DNA of 64,000 nucleotides, taken from positions 501,823-565,822 of the forward strand of contig JAHHDT010000006.1 in assembly GCA_019739225.1 (NCBI GenBank), given 5' to 3'. Shown here one piece after another: positions 3,656-44,683 of the stretch. The notes under the pieces are model-generated. The model did no database searches. It saw only the letters and a program-made list of their open reading frames with translations, and had not been told where the DNA came from. Each line of letters begins with the position of its first letter. Position 1 is the first letter of the stretch. Both the position numbers and the translations under genes were made by a program. The DNA comes from Aquamicrobium sp. (lineage in GTDB: Bacteria > Pseudomonadota > Alphaproteobacteria > Rhizobiales > Rhizobiaceae).

Positions 3656-3812
3656 AAGGCCGGTCCTCGAAGTTGCAGCGCCATTCTCCCATGGAATGGC
3701 TTGCGCAAGGCTGGTCAGTTCCGTAATGACGCCAAAGGGGCCGATTGCAATCGAAGCTGCTCGTGACAGGTGGCATGTCGCGGGCGGGGCGACTGGTCGT
3801 ATCGGATAGAAC

Positions 3813-5057
3813 TTGAAATACAAGAATGCCTTCGAGCGCAACAATGCGATCTCGGTCTTCCTGATGGGGGCACTCCCCGCGGTCGCCGGCAGCACGATCT
3901 CGGTCATGCTGGCCTGCTTCATGGTCTGGGCCGTCATATCGCTTGCATTCCGGCGGTTCGAATTTCACCTTACGCACGGCGACCGGCTTATCGCGTGGAC
4001 GTTCACCGCCTTCGTGGTCCTCGTGTTTGCAACCGCGCTCATCGGGGAGAATGTCGAGCAGATTCCATCGCATACGCTTTGGTTGCTGCCGTTTCTTTCC
4101 GTTTGGGTAGTGATTCCCCGACTGCGGGCTACGCCTGACATCGACTATCTGCATGTCTTCGCGGTGGGCGCGGCAGTGGGTGCGGTCGGTGCGCTTATGC
4201 TGGGCCTCGTCCAGGTGGTGGGATTCGATCAACGCGCCGAGGGCGGCGCCGGCAATGCGGCCGTCTTCGGCATCATCTCTTTGTGCCTGGCCGCAATCGC
4301 GGGCCTTAATCTCGACGATCCGCGCAGGAATTATCGCATCCTTGCGGTAGCCGGCATCGTGGCCGGGCTGCTGGCGGTTATCCTCTCACTGACCCGCGGC
4401 GTTGCCCTTGTTGCCATCGGCGTTCTGGTCGTGCTGGTCATCTACGCGCCGCGCCGGCGCCTGACCAATGCCACCCGCGCTGCATGGCTTGGGCTCGCGC
4501 TTGCCGTCGCCGCCGCGCTTTACGGTGCCGCAGACCTCATCGCCGACCGCCTGCTGCTCACTGTCGAGGAACTCAGCGATGTGGTGTCCGGCGAAAATTC
4601 GGCCAATATCGGCGAGAGGCTGCGCCTGTGGATCGCTGGATGGAGCGCGATCGGCGAGTCGCCGCTCTGGGGCCACGGGATCCAGAACCGCATGACAAAG
4701 GTTTCGGAGCTGCTGCTGCGCGACGGCCTGCCGATCAAGCACTATAGCCACGCCCACAATGCGTTCATCACCTTTGCGATTGACGGCGGCATCATCGTCC
4801 TTGGCGCGGTGATAGCAGTTCTGGTCATGCCGGTCTTCGTCGCATGGCATGCCCCACGAGACGCGTATCACCGCAAGCGCTTTTTCCTGGCCCTTCAGAT
4901 CAGTCTGATATTCGGTCTTTGCGGACTGACCCAGATCATGTTCAAGCATGACATCATGGACGCCTTCTATATCTTCTCGTCCATTCTGGTGGCAGCCAGC
5001 ATTGCCCATGGACGGCCGCGAGACAGCCGCGAGACGCCGGCACCGCCCGAGGCGTAA
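3813..5057 (+). CDS. O-antigen ligase/polymerase family membrane protein (Wzy_C type)
   Basis: A 414-residue polytopic protein with about ten hydrophobic segments, an early loop containing RFEFHLTHGDRL, and a large periplasmic region. That region holds ANIGERLRLWIAGWSAIGESPLWGHG and HYSHAHNAFITFAIDGG, which matches the Wzy_C/O-antigen ligase signature (…GxG…HxHN…). Such proteins polymerise or attach surface polysaccharide repeat units on the periplasmic face of the inner membrane. The frame opens with TTG at 3813 and has no strong ribosome-binding site. It is the first gene of a small polysaccharide cluster and is convergent with the epimerase gene. Confidence 0.87.
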   Translation: MKYKNAFERNNAISVFLMGALPAVAGSTISVMLACFMVWAVISLAFRRFEFHLTHGDRLIAWTFTAFVVLVFATALIGENVEQIPSHTLWLLPFLSVWVVIPRLRATPDIDYLHVFAVGAAVGAVGALMLGLVQVVGFDQRAEGGAGNAAVFGIISLCLAAIAGLNLDDPRRNYRILAVAGIVAGLLAVILSLTRGVALVAIGVLVVLVIYAPRRRLTNATRAAWLGLALAVAAALYGAADLIADRLLLTVEELSDVVSGENSANIGERLRLWIAGWSAIGESPLWGHGIQNRMTKVSELLLRDGLPIKHYSHAHNAFITFAIDGGIIVLGAVIAVLVMPVFVAWHAPRDAYHRKRFFLALQISLIFGLCGLTQIMFKHDIMDAFYIFSSILVAASIAHGRPRDSRETPAPPEA

Positions 5058-37133: not shown

Positions 37134-40106
37134 ATGGCAGATAGGGCGAAGGCTTGGCGCGGGCGCCTTTTGGGCGCGATCGCGGCCGGTCTTTTGGTTT
37201 CGACGGGAGCGGGCCCGTCCGTGGCATCGGGGGAGGCACCCGCTGCCGTGACCCGCAAATTAGAGAAGCACGAGGCTTTGTGGGCGAAGCTCGCCGCCAA
37301 CCCCGAGGCGCGGCTGCCGATGATTGTCCGGTTCGACATGCCTGCGCTGCCCGATGCCGCCAGCTTCGCCAGCCCGGCGGCCGCGGACGAGGCCCATGCA
37401 AAAGCAATCCATGCGGCGCAGGACAGGATCCTCGCGGCGGCTTTCCCGCAAGGCGCACTGTCTTCCGCGTCAGCGGCGGAGAAGAATCTGAAGCGCATGG
37501 ACTTCTCGCCGATGTTCGGCATCGCCGCCAGCGCGGACGAGATCGCGCGCTTTGCCGCCGATCCGAACGTGACCCTCATCCAGGAGGATCGCCTCAGCAA
37601 GCCGTCACTGAACGAGTCGCTGCCGCTGATCCAGATGCCGGCGATGTATGCGGCCGGCGCAACGGGCAACGGGCACCACGTGGCTGTGCTCGACACCGGC
37701 GGCCGGCGTAGCCATCAATTCCTTTCGAGCCGTATCAATTCCGAAGCCTGCTACAACACAACCGGGATCCAGGGCTCCGTCAGCCAGTGTCCGGGTGGCG
37801 CGAGTTCCTCCACCGCCACGGGATCGGGCGAGGACTGCACGGCGAGCAACATCTATGGATGCGGGCACGGCACGCACGTCGCCGGCACGGTCGCGGGCTA
37901 CAACACCGCGCCTGCCTCGGGACAGCCGACGAGCGGCGTTGCCCGTGATGCGCGTCTGATCTCGATCAACGTGTTCTCGCGCTTTCCGGCGAATTCGAGC
38001 AGCCCCTGTGGCGCAATTCCCGGATACACCCATTGCGTCCTGACCTTCGATACAGACCAGATCCGCGGACTCGAGCGGGTCTATGCCCTGCGCAATACCC
38101 ACAAGATCGCGGCCATCAACATGAGCCTGGGTGGAGGGCAGAATTTTTCGCACTGCGACAACGACGCACGCAAACCGATCATCGACCAGCTCAAGGCCGC
38201 ACGCATCGCGACGGTCATTGCGGCGGGCAATGACGGCTACGATTCCTCCGTCGGTGCGCCGGGCTGCATTTCCAGTGCGGTGACGGTTGGTTCCTCCGAC
38301 AAGTGGGACTTCCGTTCCGACTTCTCCAACTGGGGCAGCCTGGTGGACGTGGTCGCGCCCGGCTCGGACATCTATTCGTCCTACATCAACGGCAGCGCCA
38401 ACAACTACTTCTCGTTCAGTTCCGGCACCTCGATGGCATCGCCGCATGTGGCGGGCGCGTTCGCGGCACTGCGCGACGCGTTCCCGAATGCCACGGTCGA
38501 TCAGATCGAGAATGCGCTCAAATCGACCGGCGAGGGCATCTCCTCGGCCGGGGTGGTGAAGCCGCGTATCAACGTCAACGACGCGCGCATCGTGCTTGGC
38601 GGCGGTACACCGCCACCGCCTCCAACCGGGCCCGAAAACAACCACTTCGTAAACCGTATTACGGTGCCTCTGCCGGCCGCCGGCGCTACACGGACGGTCA
38701 CTGGCTCGAACGTCGGGGGAACGGCGGAGGGCGGCGAGCCTATTCACGCAGGCAAACACAGTGCGCTCAACAGTGTGTGGTGGCGCTATACACCGACCGC
38801 ATCCGGGCAGATCACCATCGATACGCTCGGCAGCAATTTCGACACCGTTCTCGCCGTGTACCGGGGCTCGTCCGTCGCCTCGCTGGTCGAAGTCGCCTCC
38901 AACGACGATGCCGATTACTACACGATCCAGTCGCAGGTGAGGTTCAACGCGACGGCGGGTGTCGAGTACCAGATCGCGGTTGCCGGCTACATGAACGAGG
39001 CAGGCAACATACGGCTGAGCTTTCATGGTGGTGCGGCGGCGGCACCCGCCAACGACAATTTCGTCGACAGGCGCAACATAAATCCACCATCGCGCGTGGG
39101 TTCGCGGCGTACCGTCACCGGGTCGACGATACTTGCAACCGCAGAGCGGTTCGAACCATACCACGCAGGCTGGAGAAACTCGCGCAATAGCGTCTGGTAC
39201 CGTTTCACGCCACAGAGCACGGGCCGGGTGACCATCGACACCAGAGGCAGTGATTTTGACACGATACTGGCGGTCTATTCGCGCAACAGCCTGCGTCACC
39301 TTACCGAGGTCGCCTCAAACAACAATTCGGTCGGACTTGGCCGTCAGTCGCGGGTCAGCTTCAGAGCTATAGCTGGGCGCCAGTACCAAATCGCAATCGT
39401 GGGATATGGCAATCGCGGCGGCAATATTCGGCTCAACATTACCGGCGGTGAGCCTATCAGGCGATCGTCGATGCTGGAGAGTGCTGCGGCTGCCGACAGG
39501 GTCAGTGGTCCGTTTGCTCCATCACAAGCTGTCGACGGGGTATCCTCCAACGCTGCGGCGCAGTCCGTAAGCCCATCGGCTGCAACACTGCCGCTTTTGC
39601 AGCAGGGCAAGTCGTTTCGTCGGGCAGGCGATACGAATGACATAGCAACCGGTTTAAAGCCGGCGCCGACCAGCAGCACCCAGGATGTAAAGCTTCTCAG
39701 CACGGTTGTGGCTTCAGGCACTGATGCCCTGCTGCCGGATGGTGGGGGCGAGAGCGTTGCTGCAATGCTGGCCGTGACGAATGCCGGCAGCCGAGCGGCG
39801 AGGGTCACGGCGGAGCTGTCGTTCGTCTCGGCGGATGGTGTTTCAACTCCAGTTCCGGCAGGGCTGTCGATCTGCCGGACACACGCAAGCAACGGAACAT
39901 GCGTCGGCGTCAAGTCGACGTCCGTGGTCTTTGATGCCGAACCGGATCGCGTGATCACATTCGCGGCGTTTGCCAGCAGTCGCGAGAACGTGAGCGCGCT
40001 TCAATCCGGCCACAGCGTTCTTCAGGTCCGGTTCCGGCAGGGTGATAACACCGTGGGAACAGCCAGCCTGGAAATGGACGGTACGCACGTAATCGGTTCG
40101 CTGTAA
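37134..40106 (+). CDS. Secreted S8 (subtilisin-like) serine protease with two PPC-like repeats
   Basis: A 990-residue protein. A signal peptide (LLGAIAAGLLVSTGAG) is followed by an inhibitor-like propeptide (about 45-150). The peptidase S8 domain has the catalytic triad D187 (VAVLDTGG), H245 (GHGTHVAGTVAG) and S433 (SGTSMASPHVAGAF). After a Pro-rich linker (GGGTPPPPPTGPENN) come two homologous ~135-residue beta-rich repeats, at about 500-630 and 637-771. Each contains HAG…NSVW(W/Y)R(Y/F)TP and FDT(V/I)LAVY motifs like pre-peptidase C-terminal domains. The last ~220 residues are not recognised. The start has AGGAGG 5 bases upstream. It is probably exported and self-processed. Confidence 0.92.
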   Translation: MADRAKAWRGRLLGAIAAGLLVSTGAGPSVASGEAPAAVTRKLEKHEALWAKLAANPEARLPMIVRFDMPALPDAASFASPAAADEAHAKAIHAAQDRILAAAFPQGALSSASAAEKNLKRMDFSPMFGIAASADEIARFAADPNVTLIQEDRLSKPSLNESLPLIQMPAMYAAGATGNGHHVAVLDTGGRRSHQFLSSRINSEACYNTTGIQGSVSQCPGGASSSTATGSGEDCTASNIYGCGHGTHVAGTVAGYNTAPASGQPTSGVARDARLISINVFSRFPANSSSPCGAIPGYTHCVLTFDTDQIRGLERVYALRNTHKIAAINMSLGGGQNFSHCDNDARKPIIDQLKAARIATVIAAGNDGYDSSVGAPGCISSAVTVGSSDKWDFRSDFSNWGSLVDVVAPGSDIYSSYINGSANNYFSFSSGTSMASPHVAGAFAALRDAFPNATVDQIENALKSTGEGISSAGVVKPRINVNDARIVLGGGTPPPPPTGPENNHFVNRITVPLPAAGATRTVTGSNVGGTAEGGEPIHAGKHSALNSVWWRYTPTASGQITIDTLGSNFDTVLAVYRGSSVASLVEVASNDDADYYTIQSQVRFNATAGVEYQIAVAGYMNEAGNIRLSFHGGAAAAPANDNFVDRRNINPPSRVGSRRTVTGSTILATAERFEPYHAGWRNSRNSVWYRFTPQSTGRVTIDTRGSDFDTILAVYSRNSLRHLTEVASNNNSVGLGRQSRVSFRAIAGRQYQIAIVGYGNRGGNIRLNITGGEPIRRSSMLESAAAADRVSGPFAPSQAVDGVSSNAAAQSVSPSAATLPLLQQGKSFRRAGDTNDIATGLKPAPTSSTQDVKLLSTVVASGTDALLPDGGGESVAAMLAVTNAGSRAARVTAELSFVSADGVSTPVPAGLSICRTHASNGTCVGVKSTSVVFDAEPDRVITFAAFASSRENVSALQSGHSVLQVRFRQGDNTVGTASLEMDGTHVIGSL

Positions 40107-40267: not shown

Positions 40268-40380
40268 AAAGAAAAACCCGCCGGGGGAGGAGGTCCGGCG
40301 GGTCAATCTGAAGCGCGGCAAGGGAGGAGGTTCGCCGCGCCAGGTTGTCGGCTTTCTGGGAGGAGGTAGATCGCCGACAC
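40268..40380 (-). ncRNA. Small RNA with three CCUCCUCCC anti-Shine-Dalgarno loops (alpha-r14/NfeR1-like)
   Basis: Read on the minus strand, this ~112-nt interval folds into three consecutive hairpins. Their stems are TGTCGGC (40346-40352 with 40373-40379), GCGCGGC (40313-40319 with 40334-40340) and CCCGCCGG (40277-40284 with 40295-40302). Each loop carries the same nine bases, CCTCCTCCC (plus-strand positions 40358, 40322 and 40285). The last hairpin is followed by TTTTTCTTT, so it doubles as the rho-independent terminator. A promoter lies just upstream. Known alphaproteobacterial sRNAs with this loop (rhizobial alpha-r14/NfeR1, Rhodobacter CcsR) pair with ribosome-binding sites. There is no open reading frame here. 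Confidence 0.88.
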
Positions 40381-40385
40381 CGGTG

Positions 40386-40413
40386 AAATAGAAATTGGCG
40401 GCCCCGAATTCAA
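40386..40413 (-). promoter_or_regulatory. Predicted sigma-70 promoter of the small RNA
   Basis: On the minus strand, TTGAAT (40408-40413) and CTATTT (40386-40391) are separated by 16 bases, similar to the rhizobial vegetative promoter pattern. The predicted start (about 40380) coincides with the first base of the first hairpin. Confidence 0.6.
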
Positions 40414-40583
40414 TTGCAGAATCTGCATGGCTGCCTTGCGAGAACGGCTGCGCCGTTCCGCCGCAGCGTCGCTTGCTGGATTCCAAGCCGCACGCCCATC
40501 CCGCGAGGGGTTGTGCGGGATGCTGGACAGTGTCTGCGCGCAGGTCCATGATCGCGAAGTCTCAGGAGAGGAGGCCCCAAATC

Positions 40584-40838
40584 ATGGGCATTGAAAGTCT
40601 TATCGTCTTCATCCTTATCGGTGCGGTCGCCGGTTGGCTGGCGGGCCAGTTGGTCAAGGGCTACGGTTTCGGCCTGCTGGGCAACATCGTTGTCGGCATA
40701 GTCGGCGCGTTCATTGCCGGCTTTCTTTTTCCCGCCCTCGGCATCAGCCTCGGCAGCGGGGTTATCGCCGCAATCATTCACGCCACCATCGGCGCCGTGA
40801 TCCTGCTGGTGCTCATCAGGCTGATCAAGCAGGCCTAG
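40584..40838 (+). CDS. GlsB/YeaQ/YmgE family small membrane protein
   Basis: An 84-residue, three-helix membrane protein (transglycosylase-associated, Pfam Transgly_assoc type). The pattern is GAVAGWLAGQLVKGYGFGLLGNIVVGIVGAFIAGFLFP followed by a last helix, VIAAIIHATIGAVILLVLIRL. Family members are small, stress-inducible inner-membrane proteins of unknown biochemistry. The ATG at 40584 has GGAGAGGAGG upstream, which itself is complementary to the CCUCCU loop of the adjacent sRNA. An inverted repeat at 40846-40866 separates it from the convergent next gene. Confidence 0.85.
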   Translation: MGIESLIVFILIGAVAGWLAGQLVKGYGFGLLGNIVVGIVGAFIAGFLFPALGISLGSGVIAAIIHATIGAVILLVLIRLIKQA

Positions 40839-41318: not shown

Positions 41319-43511
41319 TCAGTCCAGGCCTCTTGCGATGGTGCGCGTTCCGACGAGACCCTTCTGGTAGACGAAGACCCCCACGGCAATCACGAGACCG
41401 GCGATGTCGGTCGCCAGCCCGCCCTTGATCATCGCCAGCGCTCCTGCCAGCAGCAGCACACGCATGACTGCGTTGAGCGGGCCGAAGAACCATGCTTGCA
41501 CGGCCGCCGAAAGCAGGTAGACACCAAGGCATGCCGTGGCGAACACGTGTAGGATCTCCAGCCACGAGCCCTGCATCAGCAGCGCCTGCGAGTAGAAGAA
41601 CATGAACGGCACCACGAATGCTGCGAGGCCGAATTTGAAAGCCTCGACCGATGTTCGCATCGGGTCGGACCCCGACAAGGCCGCGCCGGCGTAGGCAGCA
41701 AGCGCCACCGGCGGCGTGATCGCTGACATCACCGCGTAGTAGAAGACGAAGAAATGCGCCGTCAGCACCGGTATGCCGAGCGAGATCAGGCCCGGCGCGA
41801 CGACGGCGGCTGCGACGGCGTAGGCAGCGGTTGTCGGCATGCCCATGCCGAGGATGATCGATATGCACATGGCGAAGAACAGCGCCAGCAACTGGTTCTG
41901 TTCCGCGATGCCCAGAAGCAGCGTCGAGAAACGCGCGCCGACGCCGGTCAGCGCGATCACGCCGACGATGATGCCTGCGCAGGCGCAGACGGCAACGAGC
42001 TGGATCGACATCTTGGCCGCCAGCTCGAAGGCGCCGAGGACCGAGCGTACGCCCATGCGGTGCGGCGTCAGCCAGCTCACCACCGCCGCCGAGACCATCG
42101 CCAGTGTGCCGGCGCGGATGACTGAGTATCCCGCGAACAGCGAATAGATCAGGATCACGATAGGAAAGAACAGATAGGCCTGTTTCAGGAGTTCCTTGAA
42201 GACAGGCAGCTCGTTTTTCGGCAGGCCCTTCATGCCGAGCTTGGTCGCCTGCAGATCGACCATGAAGTAGATGGAAGCGAAATAGAGGATCGACGGGATC
42301 AGTGCGGCGATCACGATCTCGGTGTAGGGAATGCCCGTCACCTCGGCCATGATGAAGGCGCCAGCGCCCATGATCGGCGGCATGATCTGGCCACCCGAGG
42401 AGGCAGCCGCCTCGATCGCGCCGGCGCTCCTGGCGGGATAGCCGACACGTTTCATCAGGGGGATCGTCAACGACCCGGTGGAGACGACGTTACCGGCCGA
42501 GGTGCCGTTGATCATGCCCATCAGGCCGGACGCGAAGACCGCCACCTTGGCCGGGCCGCCACGCGCGCGGCCTGCCGCGGCGAAGGCGAAGTTGACGAAA
42601 TAGTCGCCCACTTTCGATGCCTGAAGAAAGGCGGCGAAGGTGATGAACAGGATGATGTAGGTGGAAGACACGGCGACCGGATCGCCGAGGATGCCCTGGT
42701 CCGTGTAGATGTAGGTGAAGAACCGTTCGGGTGAGTACCCGCGGTGGGCCAGGAAACCCGGCAGATAGGGGCCTGCGAAGGAATAGAGGATGAATATGCC
42801 GGCGATGGCTACGAGCGCGAGGCCCGCTACGCGCCGCGTCAGCTCCAGGATGAGCAGCGCGCCCACCAGCGCGGCGTGGAAGTCGGCCGGCTGTGCCAGT
42901 GCGGTGCCTGCGCGCAGGCGGATGGCCTGGACGTTGAAGAGGATGTAGCCGGCGACGGTGACGGCGGCGATGGCCAGCAGCAGGTCCGACCAGTGAACCC
43001 CGCCGCGGTCCTTGCGCGGGAAGAACCAGCTTCCCGCGATCGCCGCGATGGTGCCGACGATCAGCGGCAGGCCATAGGTGCCGAAGACCAGGGCCGGCGG
43101 GCTGACGAGGCCCGCTGTCCACCATGCCGCCCAGGCGAAGCCGACCATGGCCGCGCCATAAAGCACACCGGCCGCGGCGACCAGCGCGATCGCCATTTCA
43201 AGCGGCTTGAGCTGCAGGAAGCGCGATCTGCCGTCGGTGTCGCCGACATTGCTGGATGAAAACAGGATGAAGCCGATGAGCAGGCCGCCGGCGACGTGTG
43301 TTACCCGATAGGCCCAGGTTTCCAGCGGATAGAGGTTCATCACCCCGATGTGGAAGACGGTATAGGCGATGCACAGCGCCACCAGCACCCAACCGAGACG
43401 CTCTCCTGCGAAGTCGCGTTGATTGGTGGCCAGAGCTTCCTCGTCGGCCCCTCGAGACACGATCTGCTCGACGGCTGCGGACTCTGTCTTGATCTTTTCC
43501 GCGTCGGTCAT
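41319..43511 (-). CDS. TRAP transporter fused permease (TAXI-type, 4TM/12TM)
   Basis: A 730-residue polytopic protein fusing a DctQ-like small subunit (N-terminal ~four helices) to a DctM-like large subunit, as in TAXI TRAP systems. Landmarks are FYAVMSAITPPVALAAYAGAALSGSDPMRT and GLMGMINGTSAGNVVSTGSLTIPLMKRVGY, plus ASSGGQIMPPIMGAGAFIMAEVTG. It imports a substrate using a sodium gradient and a periplasmic TAXI binding protein, whose gene lies upstream. The ATG at 43511 follows GGGAGGATAGCC. The substrate is probably a dicarboxylate or glutamate-like anion, judged from the adjacent DctB/DctD pair, but this is inference. Confidence 0.92.
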   Translation of the reverse strand: MTDAEKIKTESAAVEQIVSRGADEEALATNQRDFAGERLGWVLVALCIAYTVFHIGVMNLYPLETWAYRVTHVAGGLLIGFILFSSSNVGDTDGRSRFLQLKPLEMAIALVAAAGVLYGAAMVGFAWAAWWTAGLVSPPALVFGTYGLPLIVGTIAAIAGSWFFPRKDRGGVHWSDLLLAIAAVTVAGYILFNVQAIRLRAGTALAQPADFHAALVGALLILELTRRVAGLALVAIAGIFILYSFAGPYLPGFLAHRGYSPERFFTYIYTDQGILGDPVAVSSTYIILFITFAAFLQASKVGDYFVNFAFAAAGRARGGPAKVAVFASGLMGMINGTSAGNVVSTGSLTIPLMKRVGYPARSAGAIEAAASSGGQIMPPIMGAGAFIMAEVTGIPYTEIVIAALIPSILYFASIYFMVDLQATKLGMKGLPKNELPVFKELLKQAYLFFPIVILIYSLFAGYSVIRAGTLAMVSAAVVSWLTPHRMGVRSVLGAFELAAKMSIQLVAVCACAGIIVGVIALTGVGARFSTLLLGIAEQNQLLALFFAMCISIILGMGMPTTAAYAVAAAVVAPGLISLGIPVLTAHFFVFYYAVMSAITPPVALAAYAGAALSGSDPMRTSVEAFKFGLAAFVVPFMFFYSQALLMQGSWLEILHVFATACLGVYLLSAAVQAWFFGPLNAVMRVLLLAGALAMIKGGLATDIAGLVIAVGVFVYQKGLVGTRTIARGLD

Positions 43512-43623
43512 GGCTATCCTCCCTGGCATGCGCCTGCGTTCGCAGCGCTATCGCCGATCCTTGCCGTGAGCGAAGACGGGCGCCGATCGATCCGATCGGA
43601 GCCCGTCAGGTCGCCTTGTGCGA

Positions 43624-44598
43624 TTACTGTCCCTTGAGTTCGTCCGGGATCGCGATACCGGCTTCCTCGTAATAGCGCACCGCGCCGGGATGGAAGGGCA
43701 GGAAGGTATTCTTATCGGTGTTGGCCGCAATGGTTTCTGCCGCCGTGGCGTGGATCGCCTTCATGCGGTCGTTGTTTTCCATCACCAGCTTGGTGATCTC
43801 GTAGGCCAGCGATTCCGGCATTTCCTGATGAGCCACCGCAAAGTTCCACAGGCTGACCGTTCCCTGCGGGTCCGGATAGCCTTCATACAGACCGCCTGGA
43901 ATGTCGAAGGCGGCGAGTTCCGGACGGGCTTCGAGGATCTTGGCTGCTTCGTCGCCGGTGAAGGCGAAGATGTTGACCGGGTTTTCCGCCGCGATCTGTG
44001 CGAAGGCTGCGATCGGCACGCCGGCCGCGAAGGCGAAGGCGTCGATCAGGCCGTCCTTGACCTGGCTCACGGCGTCGTTGGCGCCGGAGTAGCTGATGTC
44101 GGCGGTGACGCCGTTGATCTCGAAGAAGCGCGGCCAGTAGGTCGCCGCCGTGCCGCCCGCCGGGCCCACGGAGACACGCTTGCCTTCCAGGTCCGCCAGA
44201 GTCTCGATACCGGACGACTTCAGCGCCACGGCCTGAAACGGCGTCTGGTACATGGGGAACAGGGCGCGCAGGCTCTTGTGCTCGACGCCGGGCGCAAGCT
44301 CGCTCTCACCCATCCAGGCCTCGTAGGCCGGACCCATCGTCACGAGACCGATCTGGTGGTCGCCGGTCTCTACCAGCGTGGCGTTCTGCACCGGGCCGCC
44401 GGTGACCTCGCCGGAAGCGTTGACGCCGAGCGACTCGGTGATCAGGCCTGCGAGGCCGGTTCCGTAGATGAAGTAGGTGCCGCCCTGGCTGGCGGTGCCG
44501 ATGGTCAGGCTGGTCGGCCAGCCCTCGCGATCCTGCGCGGATGCCGGTACGGCAAGAAGCGTGGCTGCAGCCATCGCTGCAATGGTGAAGTGGCGCAT
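43624..44598 (-). CDS. TAXI-family TRAP transporter solute-binding protein
   Basis: A 324-residue periplasmic protein with a signal peptide (AAMAAATLLAVPASAQ). It has the TAXI start LTIGTASQGGTYFIYGTGLAGLITESLG and later LADLEGKRVSVGPAGGTAATYWPRFFEINGV and SQVKDGLIDAFAFAAGVP. It binds the substrate for the fused permease, which is 112 bases downstream. The ATG at 44598 follows GGGAGGATTACCC. A candidate sigma-54 promoter and palindromes lie upstream, between it and the divergently ending DctD-type gene. Confidence 0.9.
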   Translation of the reverse strand: MRHFTIAAMAAATLLAVPASAQDREGWPTSLTIGTASQGGTYFIYGTGLAGLITESLGVNASGEVTGGPVQNATLVETGDHQIGLVTMGPAYEAWMGESELAPGVEHKSLRALFPMYQTPFQAVALKSSGIETLADLEGKRVSVGPAGGTAATYWPRFFEINGVTADISYSGANDAVSQVKDGLIDAFAFAAGVPIAAFAQIAAENPVNIFAFTGDEAAKILEARPELAAFDIPGGLYEGYPDPQGTVSLWNFAVAHQEMPESLAYEITKLVMENNDRMKAIHATAAETIAANTDKNTFLPFHPGAVRYYEEAGIAIPDELKGQ

Positions 44599-44683
44599 GG
44601 GTAATCCTCCCGGTCTGCGTGTTGTTGTCGGCCGCCCGGTCCGCAAGTTTCCTCCCGAAGCCCTGGCGGTTGAACGCAGCACA

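Follow-up and report, generated by a model that had tools for sequence, protein, structure and literature searches.

The locus examined here raises a question about three adjacent hairpins, read from the minus strand of a 64,000-nucleotide stretch of the genome of Aquamicrobium sp. (the window; the genome itself is referred to as the own genome, G000): do they form the gene of a small RNA (sRNA) with a promoter of its own, and would such an RNA act on the gene beside it, on mRNAs encoded elsewhere, or on both? The answer that we consider highly probable, taken together with the whole of the mechanism proposed for it, is that the locus is the gene of a trans-acting sRNA of the ar14 family (NfeR1-type, 'cuckoo').

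According to this explanation, a sigma-70-like promoter would give rise to an RNA of about 110 nt folded into three hairpins, the last of which is the terminator, the anatomy being shown by sequence and covariation and transcription being presumed. The anti-Shine-Dalgarno 9-mer exposed in each loop would pair with GGGAGGAGG-type start regions and block translation; both the pairing and the block are described for NfeR1 of Sinorhizobium meliloti in passages of PMC10746234 and PMC8844928. Transcription is probably activated by a LysR regulator resembling LsrB/VtlR, whose gene lies between trxB and an AbcR-type RNA, and the main targets are probably nutrient-uptake mRNAs. Such a gene would extend NfeR1, a studied regulator, to a bacterium of the Aquamicrobium / 'Mesorhizobium' sediminum type, leaving the presumed role of the ar14 family unchanged.

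Architecture of the hairpin array

The predicted sRNA occupies positions 40268-40379 of the minus strand, as delimited by the Rfam model RF02344, folding and covariation, and its 5' end near 40379 is placed from the -10 box. Hairpin 1 (40346-40379) has arms at 40379-40368 and 40357-40346 around the loop CCUCCUCCC at 40358-40366; hairpin 2 (40313-40340) has arms at 40340-40332 and 40321-40313 and the same loop at 40322-40330; hairpin 3 (40268-40303) has arms at 40303-40295 and 40284-40276, with the loop at 40285-40293, all three being recognised from fold, covariation and sequence. At these three loop positions the minus strand carries the 9-mer CCTCCTCCC, with spacings of 37 and 36 bases. A preliminary description of this DNA had reported three adjacent hairpins exposing the same nine bases at intervals of 36-37, and both the 9-mer positions and the fold bear it out. 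Hairpin 3 is followed by TTTTTCTTT at 40276-40268, and this U tract after a stem that is kept in relatives agrees with the earlier view that it doubles as an intrinsic, rho-independent terminator.

In the 64-kb window the 9-mer CCTCCTCCC occurs three times only, always in the array; by chance a mean of 0.52 per window is expected, and three copies, however scattered, were reached in 4 of 100 shuffles. Across the own genome, paired 9-mers 18-46 bases apart are found at three places, compared with none for the reversed pattern. The array folds at -59.5 kcal/mol (z -3.43; none of 200 shuffles was as good), with every 9-mer in a hairpin loop.

The promoter previously proposed, TTGAAT-N16-CTATTT, would be sigma-70-like and lies at 40386-40413 of the minus strand, with a putative -35 box (TTGAAT, 40413-40408), a spacer of 16 and a putative -10 box (CTATTT, 40391-40386), and its TTG and TA are invariant in 11 related sequences. 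A simple consensus scan of the window, whose rules demanded a stronger -10 and a terminator loop of at most 8, listed neither the promoter nor the terminator of the array.

Family membership and distribution

The covariance-model search suggested for the proposed kinship with alpha-r14/NfeR1 returned Rfam ar14 (RF02344) at 70.8 bits against a cut-off of 58.8 (E 9.2e-11), over the full model length and at 40385-40269. At the Rfam cut-offs the window contains ar14 and one tRNA only; matches to RF02345 (AbcR/alpha-r15) lie elsewhere, and an AbcR/alpha-r15 identity was rejected for the window element, which has no RF02345 match in the window. Alpha-r14/NfeR1 transcripts are Hfq-independent, measure 115-123 nt and are induced by stress or low nitrogen. 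Excerpts on the NfeR1/cuckoo family (PMC10746234, PMC3927594, PMC7143759) allow a closer comparison with S. meliloti (SmelA075/SmelA099, 'cuckoo' RNAs): shared features are three CCUCCUCCC-loop hairpins with variable stems, an own sigma-70 promoter, an LsrB-type box and several copies per genome, whereas the window element differs in the GlsB-like gene that adjoins it in its genus and, with respect to the Rfam ar14 consensus, in a shorter loop spacing. Judged by model score and structure, the element is a new member of this already known family (NfeR1, 'cuckoo' RNAs) of rhizobia and relatives.

At E <=0.001, ar14 was matched in 44 of 60 genomes, the own genome counted in, and the cut-off was exceeded in 36 of the 60. 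Of the 36 same-family genomes 35 had a match, and the 14 control genomes had none. The own genome holds four matches, three above the cut-off and a fourth at 34.3 bits and lacking a perfect 9-mer, and its counts include duplicates, since the assembly repeats stretches. Near-identical genes stand on contig C2 and at the start of C5, the AbcR-trxB locus is present twice, at the ends of C1 and C7, and contamination is 4.66%. Tandem ar14 matches were observed elsewhere, eight in G030 (L176, L177) and four in a row in both G034 (L170) and G027 (L166).

Conservation in the genus

The alignment comprised eleven genus sequences, among them those of Mesorhizobium microcysteis (G003), M. sediminum (G004, the sister genome) and Aquamicrobium aerolatum (G007); G001, G002 and G007 contribute two copies each, so the aligned sequences are not all orthologues. 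The preliminary description had named a lack of loop conservation in related genomes as evidence against the sRNA; the loop 9-mers are intact in all 33 instances. Meanwhile the stems vary: 17 of 30 stem pairs are altered on both sides, with 92.6% of cells still paired, and the covariation score is 0.463 compared with at most 0.149 when one arm is slid. The alignment has 24 further pair types, no more than the shuffles give (mean 28.3). The helix of hairpin 3 pairs in 99 of 99 cells (100%), and two inner pairs of hairpin 1 are mismatched in 8 of the 11 sequences and normal in 3. In the orthologue-like copies of G003, G004, G005, G006 and G007, loops, stems and the -35/-10 core are all kept. The array structure, to judge from this pattern of change, is under selection.

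The same alignment bears on whether the hairpins might instead belong to a protein-coding frame, given that a 111-aa ORF on the minus strand (40549-40214) stays open through them. In the sister genome G004 a one-base insertion in hairpin 3 shifts this frame, and the variation in the array follows base pairing; on these two grounds a coding frame through the hairpins was ruled out, and we regard it as extremely improbable.

Genomic contexts of ar14 arrays

Arrays of at least two hairpins were collected from loci fetched for part of the ar14 matches, giving 86 arrays at 78 loci in 34 genomes; the hairpin finder was coarse, recovering two of the three hairpins of the window. Each array was classed by the gene lying at most 260 nt upstream, identified by tblastn, which replaced regular expressions. 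A DUF1127 gene precedes 29 arrays and a phasin gene 11, leaving 46 that follow neither. Each class has one clear representative in the own genome, the window copy being the unlinked one, with no DUF1127 or phasin gene found within 260 nt upstream.

The DUF1127-linked copy of the own genome (C1:436202; PF06568, 64.1 bits) includes its best ar14 match (101.1 bits), directly behind a 45-aa DUF1127 gene (L068:4055-4192, hairpins from 4222), and has the layout of the known CcaF1-CcsR. This linkage is already published: as excerpts of PMC10253847 describe, the CcsR RNAs of Rhodobacter sphaeroides are processed from a transcript that begins with the DUF1127 gene. CcsR1-4, which accompany CcaF1 (DUF1127), share the anti-Shine-Dalgarno loop motif, as noted for RS0680a in part of PMC3927594, but they are cut from the DUF1127 transcript, whereas the window copy has no such gene upstream although another copy in its genome does. 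The kinship with CcsR that had been proposed thus stands for the loop motif and fails for the origin from a DUF1127 transcript. A CcsR-type origin of the window copy was ruled out on the ground that neither a DUF1127 nor a phasin gene lies within 260 nt upstream.

The phasin-linked copy of the own genome lies at C5:1051742 (PF09361, 57.6 bits), and the class comprises the arrays of L069, L042, L050, L054, L058, L062, L067, L152, L168, L173 and L175. At L069 the phasin gene spans 3771-4226 and the hairpins begin at 4262. Across the set, the array starts 32-101 nt behind the phasin gene in 11 of the 34 array-bearing genomes, with phasin identities of 65-100% to the own protein. In the openly licensed literature we found no paper tying ar14-type RNAs to phasin or GlsB.

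A putative LsrB/VtlR operator

Upstream of the promoter, a probable LsrB/VtlR operator, CGCAAGGCAGCCATGCA, is predicted at 40424-40440 of the minus strand from a match to a published box. That box, GCAT-N3-TG-N3-T, is given for VtlR/LsrB in passages of PMC7486931 and PMC8844928, and an exact match to it runs along the plus strand at 40425-40437. The form given for NfeR1 in part of PMC10746234, TGCA-N6-GCAT, fits the window operator with two mismatches.

In either orientation, the published box lies upstream of 20 of the 46 unlinked arrays and of 1 of the 40 DUF1127- or phasin-linked ones, the exception being an array of G021 (L136) that the tblastn relabelling moved to the DUF1127 class. The associated Fisher P of 4e-6 is indicative only, since related genomes contributed non-independent arrays. 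For the 54 arrays first called independent, resampling gave an expectation of 1.96 boxed arrays, and 21 were seen. The palindrome TGCATGGCNGCCATGCA, with at most 4 mismatches, precedes 29 of those 54 and none of the 32 others; because this palindrome came out of the arrays themselves, the published box tests the association more cleanly. The exact box is missing from 26 of the 46 unlinked arrays. It is also common, with 12 occurrences in the window, and a box-related 17-mer with at most 2 mismatches is found 120 times in the own genome against 41 times in reverse; the box alone being not rare, the argument is carried by its fixed position and its conservation. Within the genus alignment the exact box is present in G003, G004 and G006 and in the second copies of G001 and G007, while the looser palindrome is found with 3 mismatches in G005 and the first G007 copy, with 4 in the second G002 copy and with 5 in the first copies of G001 and G002. 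These distributions suggest the LsrB box as a mark of ar14 genes that have putative promoters of their own, nearly absent from those located behind protein genes, and a rule based on the box would sort this multi-copy family by its inputs. Such a sorting, together with the predicted phasin-linked copies, goes slightly beyond the published work that we found.

The number of copies also raises the possibility that the window gene is an intact but silent, or nearly silent, paralogue whose function is carried by other copies. Four ar14 matches are present in the own genome, and, as stated in part of PMC7143759, one of six NfeR1 copies of S. meliloti is reliably detected, so any given copy may be nearly silent. 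Against this, the five orthologue-like copies keep loops, stems and promoter core, and three of them (G003, G004 and G006) have the exact box; we consider a silent gene unlikely.

More tentatively, and with somewhat more doubt than confidence, the three classes may represent three inputs to one triple-CCUCCUCCC effector: an LsrB-boxed promoter responding to redox or nutrient state, and the 3' ends of two protein genes, one for DUF1127 and the other for a phasin (storage-granule protein). If this were true, nutrient uptake would be tied to carbon storage through the phasin-linked copy; proteins resembling PhaB and GlgC, both named by eye, count among the nine ORFs with perfect loop complements described below.

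The presumed regulator has a candidate in the own genome, where trxB, a LysR gene and an AbcR (ar15) RNA stand in a row at L214 (G000:C1:1121988-1125099). The LysR gene is likened by this gene order to vtlR of Agrobacterium, for which the arrangement is described in a passage of PMC7486931. An LsrB-type box precedes the AbcR gene by 50-62 bases from the 5' end of the ar15 model, close to the position of the S. meliloti abcR1 box (-61 to -49 in the relevant part of PMC8844928). AbcR1 and AbcR2 (alpha-r15, RF02345) resemble the window element in the loop CUCCUCCC and, as far as predicted for the latter, in the activation of AbcR1 by LsrB and in their transporter targets, as excerpted from PMC8844928, and differ from it, an ar14 RNA, in having another fold with two anti-Shine-Dalgarno motifs.

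Three further elements were observed in the upstream region. The sequence TGC-N11-GCA, an NtrC-like site, is found at 40449-40465 and is identical in G003 and G004; to our knowledge, such an NtrC site of alpha-r14/NfeR1 is reported for plant symbionts only. It occurs at 6 of 21 boxed arrays against 1.59 expected, three of the six being near relatives and one the LsrB-type palindrome itself. Between the sRNA gene and glsB lie two inverted repeats, GAACGGC-N3-GCCGTTC at 40442-40458, which overlaps the NtrC-like site, and CATCCCGC-N10-GCGGGATG at 40497-40522.

Flanking genes and a possible local target

As described earlier, the element is located between a protease gene and a GlsB-type gene. The former encodes a subtilase (Peptidase_S8 by Pfam; 37137-40106, plus strand, start taken at an internal ATG), is convergent and serves as context; it is 83-95% identical to the G004 subtilase in three main pieces. 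The latter, divergent at 40584-40838 of the plus strand, encodes a GlsB-like small membrane protein of 84 aa (Transgly_assoc, PF04226 by Pfam). Its ribosome-binding site, GGAGAGGAGG, lies at 40565-40574, before the ATG at 40584, and not at 40570-40590 where it had been placed.

The sRNA might act mainly on this divergent neighbour, its loops pairing with the glsB ribosome-binding site; the two genes would then make up a local unit of control, and LsrB might act on both promoters. The loop pairs with the glsB start at -15.6 kcal/mol in G000 and G004, and among 52 other window ORFs two, including one with a doubtful internal start, equal or surpass this value; moreover, glsB is divergent and adjacent to the array, at 175-198 bp, in four of the eight genus genomes (G000, G003, G004 and G007), and the exact LsrB/VtlR box is oriented towards it. 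Against such a unit, the pairing falls to -11.1 in G003, -10.3 in G006 and -10.4 kcal/mol in G007, values of ordinary sites, and the 7-base match at start-codon distance seen at glsB recurs at 136 sites in the genome (21 reversed). The box is found, too, before copies located away from glsB. The gene lies 2.2 kb from the array in G006, and the best GlsB matches of G001, G002 and G005 are distant, with at most 45% identity. Outside the genus, 11 genomes encode a GlsB with 57% identity or more, and in none of them was an ar14 match found nearby, the nearest being 50 kb off (G035), under strict search filters by which weak matches could be missed. Outside the genus the pairing ranges from -5.3 to -10.8 kcal/mol, except for -13.4 in G054; of all 14 GlsB loci entered in the pairing comparison, 12 yielded values.

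The predicted loop-glsB pairing is therefore strong in the window's species but neither unusual nor conserved, since it drops outside G000 and G004 and is matched by 2 of 52 ORFs. The proposal that glsB is a direct local target retains the -15.6 kcal/mol pairing of G000 and G004 and is narrowed by an adjacency seen only within the genus, which makes glsB a weakly supported candidate. As the main, conserved target it was rejected as unsupported on the basis of genus-only adjacency, pairing in two species and 136 like sites, and a unit acting chiefly on glsB appears improbable. The trans-acting ar14 sRNA is retained as the preferred reading.

Predicted targets of the trans-acting RNA

NfeR1 represses ntrB (in part of PMC10746234) and two periplasmic binding-protein mRNAs (in part of PMC8844928) via its loops. 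For the window sRNA, the pattern GGGAGGAGG-N3-10-ATG was found 16 times in the own genome, compared with 2 times in reverse, and these perfect sites led to nine ORFs after six sites with ORFs below 100 aa were discarded and a near-identical pair was merged into one. Pfam identifies six of the nine as transport proteins (two ABC ATPases, an ABC permease, two TRAP proteins and EutH), in comparison with 1 of 20 control ORFs (Fisher P 0.0011). The controls were taken from behind AAGGAGA sites, namely the first 30 of 101, on contigs C1-C3, with 10 dropped as short or repeated. The remaining three ORFs encode a short-chain reductase, a nucleotidyltransferase and an MmeI-like methylase; by eye, we take the reductase to be similar to PhaB and another enzyme to GlgC. 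The perfect site recurs before one ABC ATPase in G001, G002 and G007, and before the nucleotidyltransferase in G003. On the strength of nine ORFs and controls from three contigs, the window sRNA most likely represses the translation of transporter mRNAs, and by analogy with NfeR1 its earlier description as a global regulator is plausible.

Within the window itself, two nearby genes on the minus strand at 41319-44682, one for a TRAP (DctM) protein and one for an NMT1-like binding protein, are plausible targets of the usual class: the loop pairs with their GGGAGGA start regions at -13.2 and -13.3 kcal/mol, respectively.
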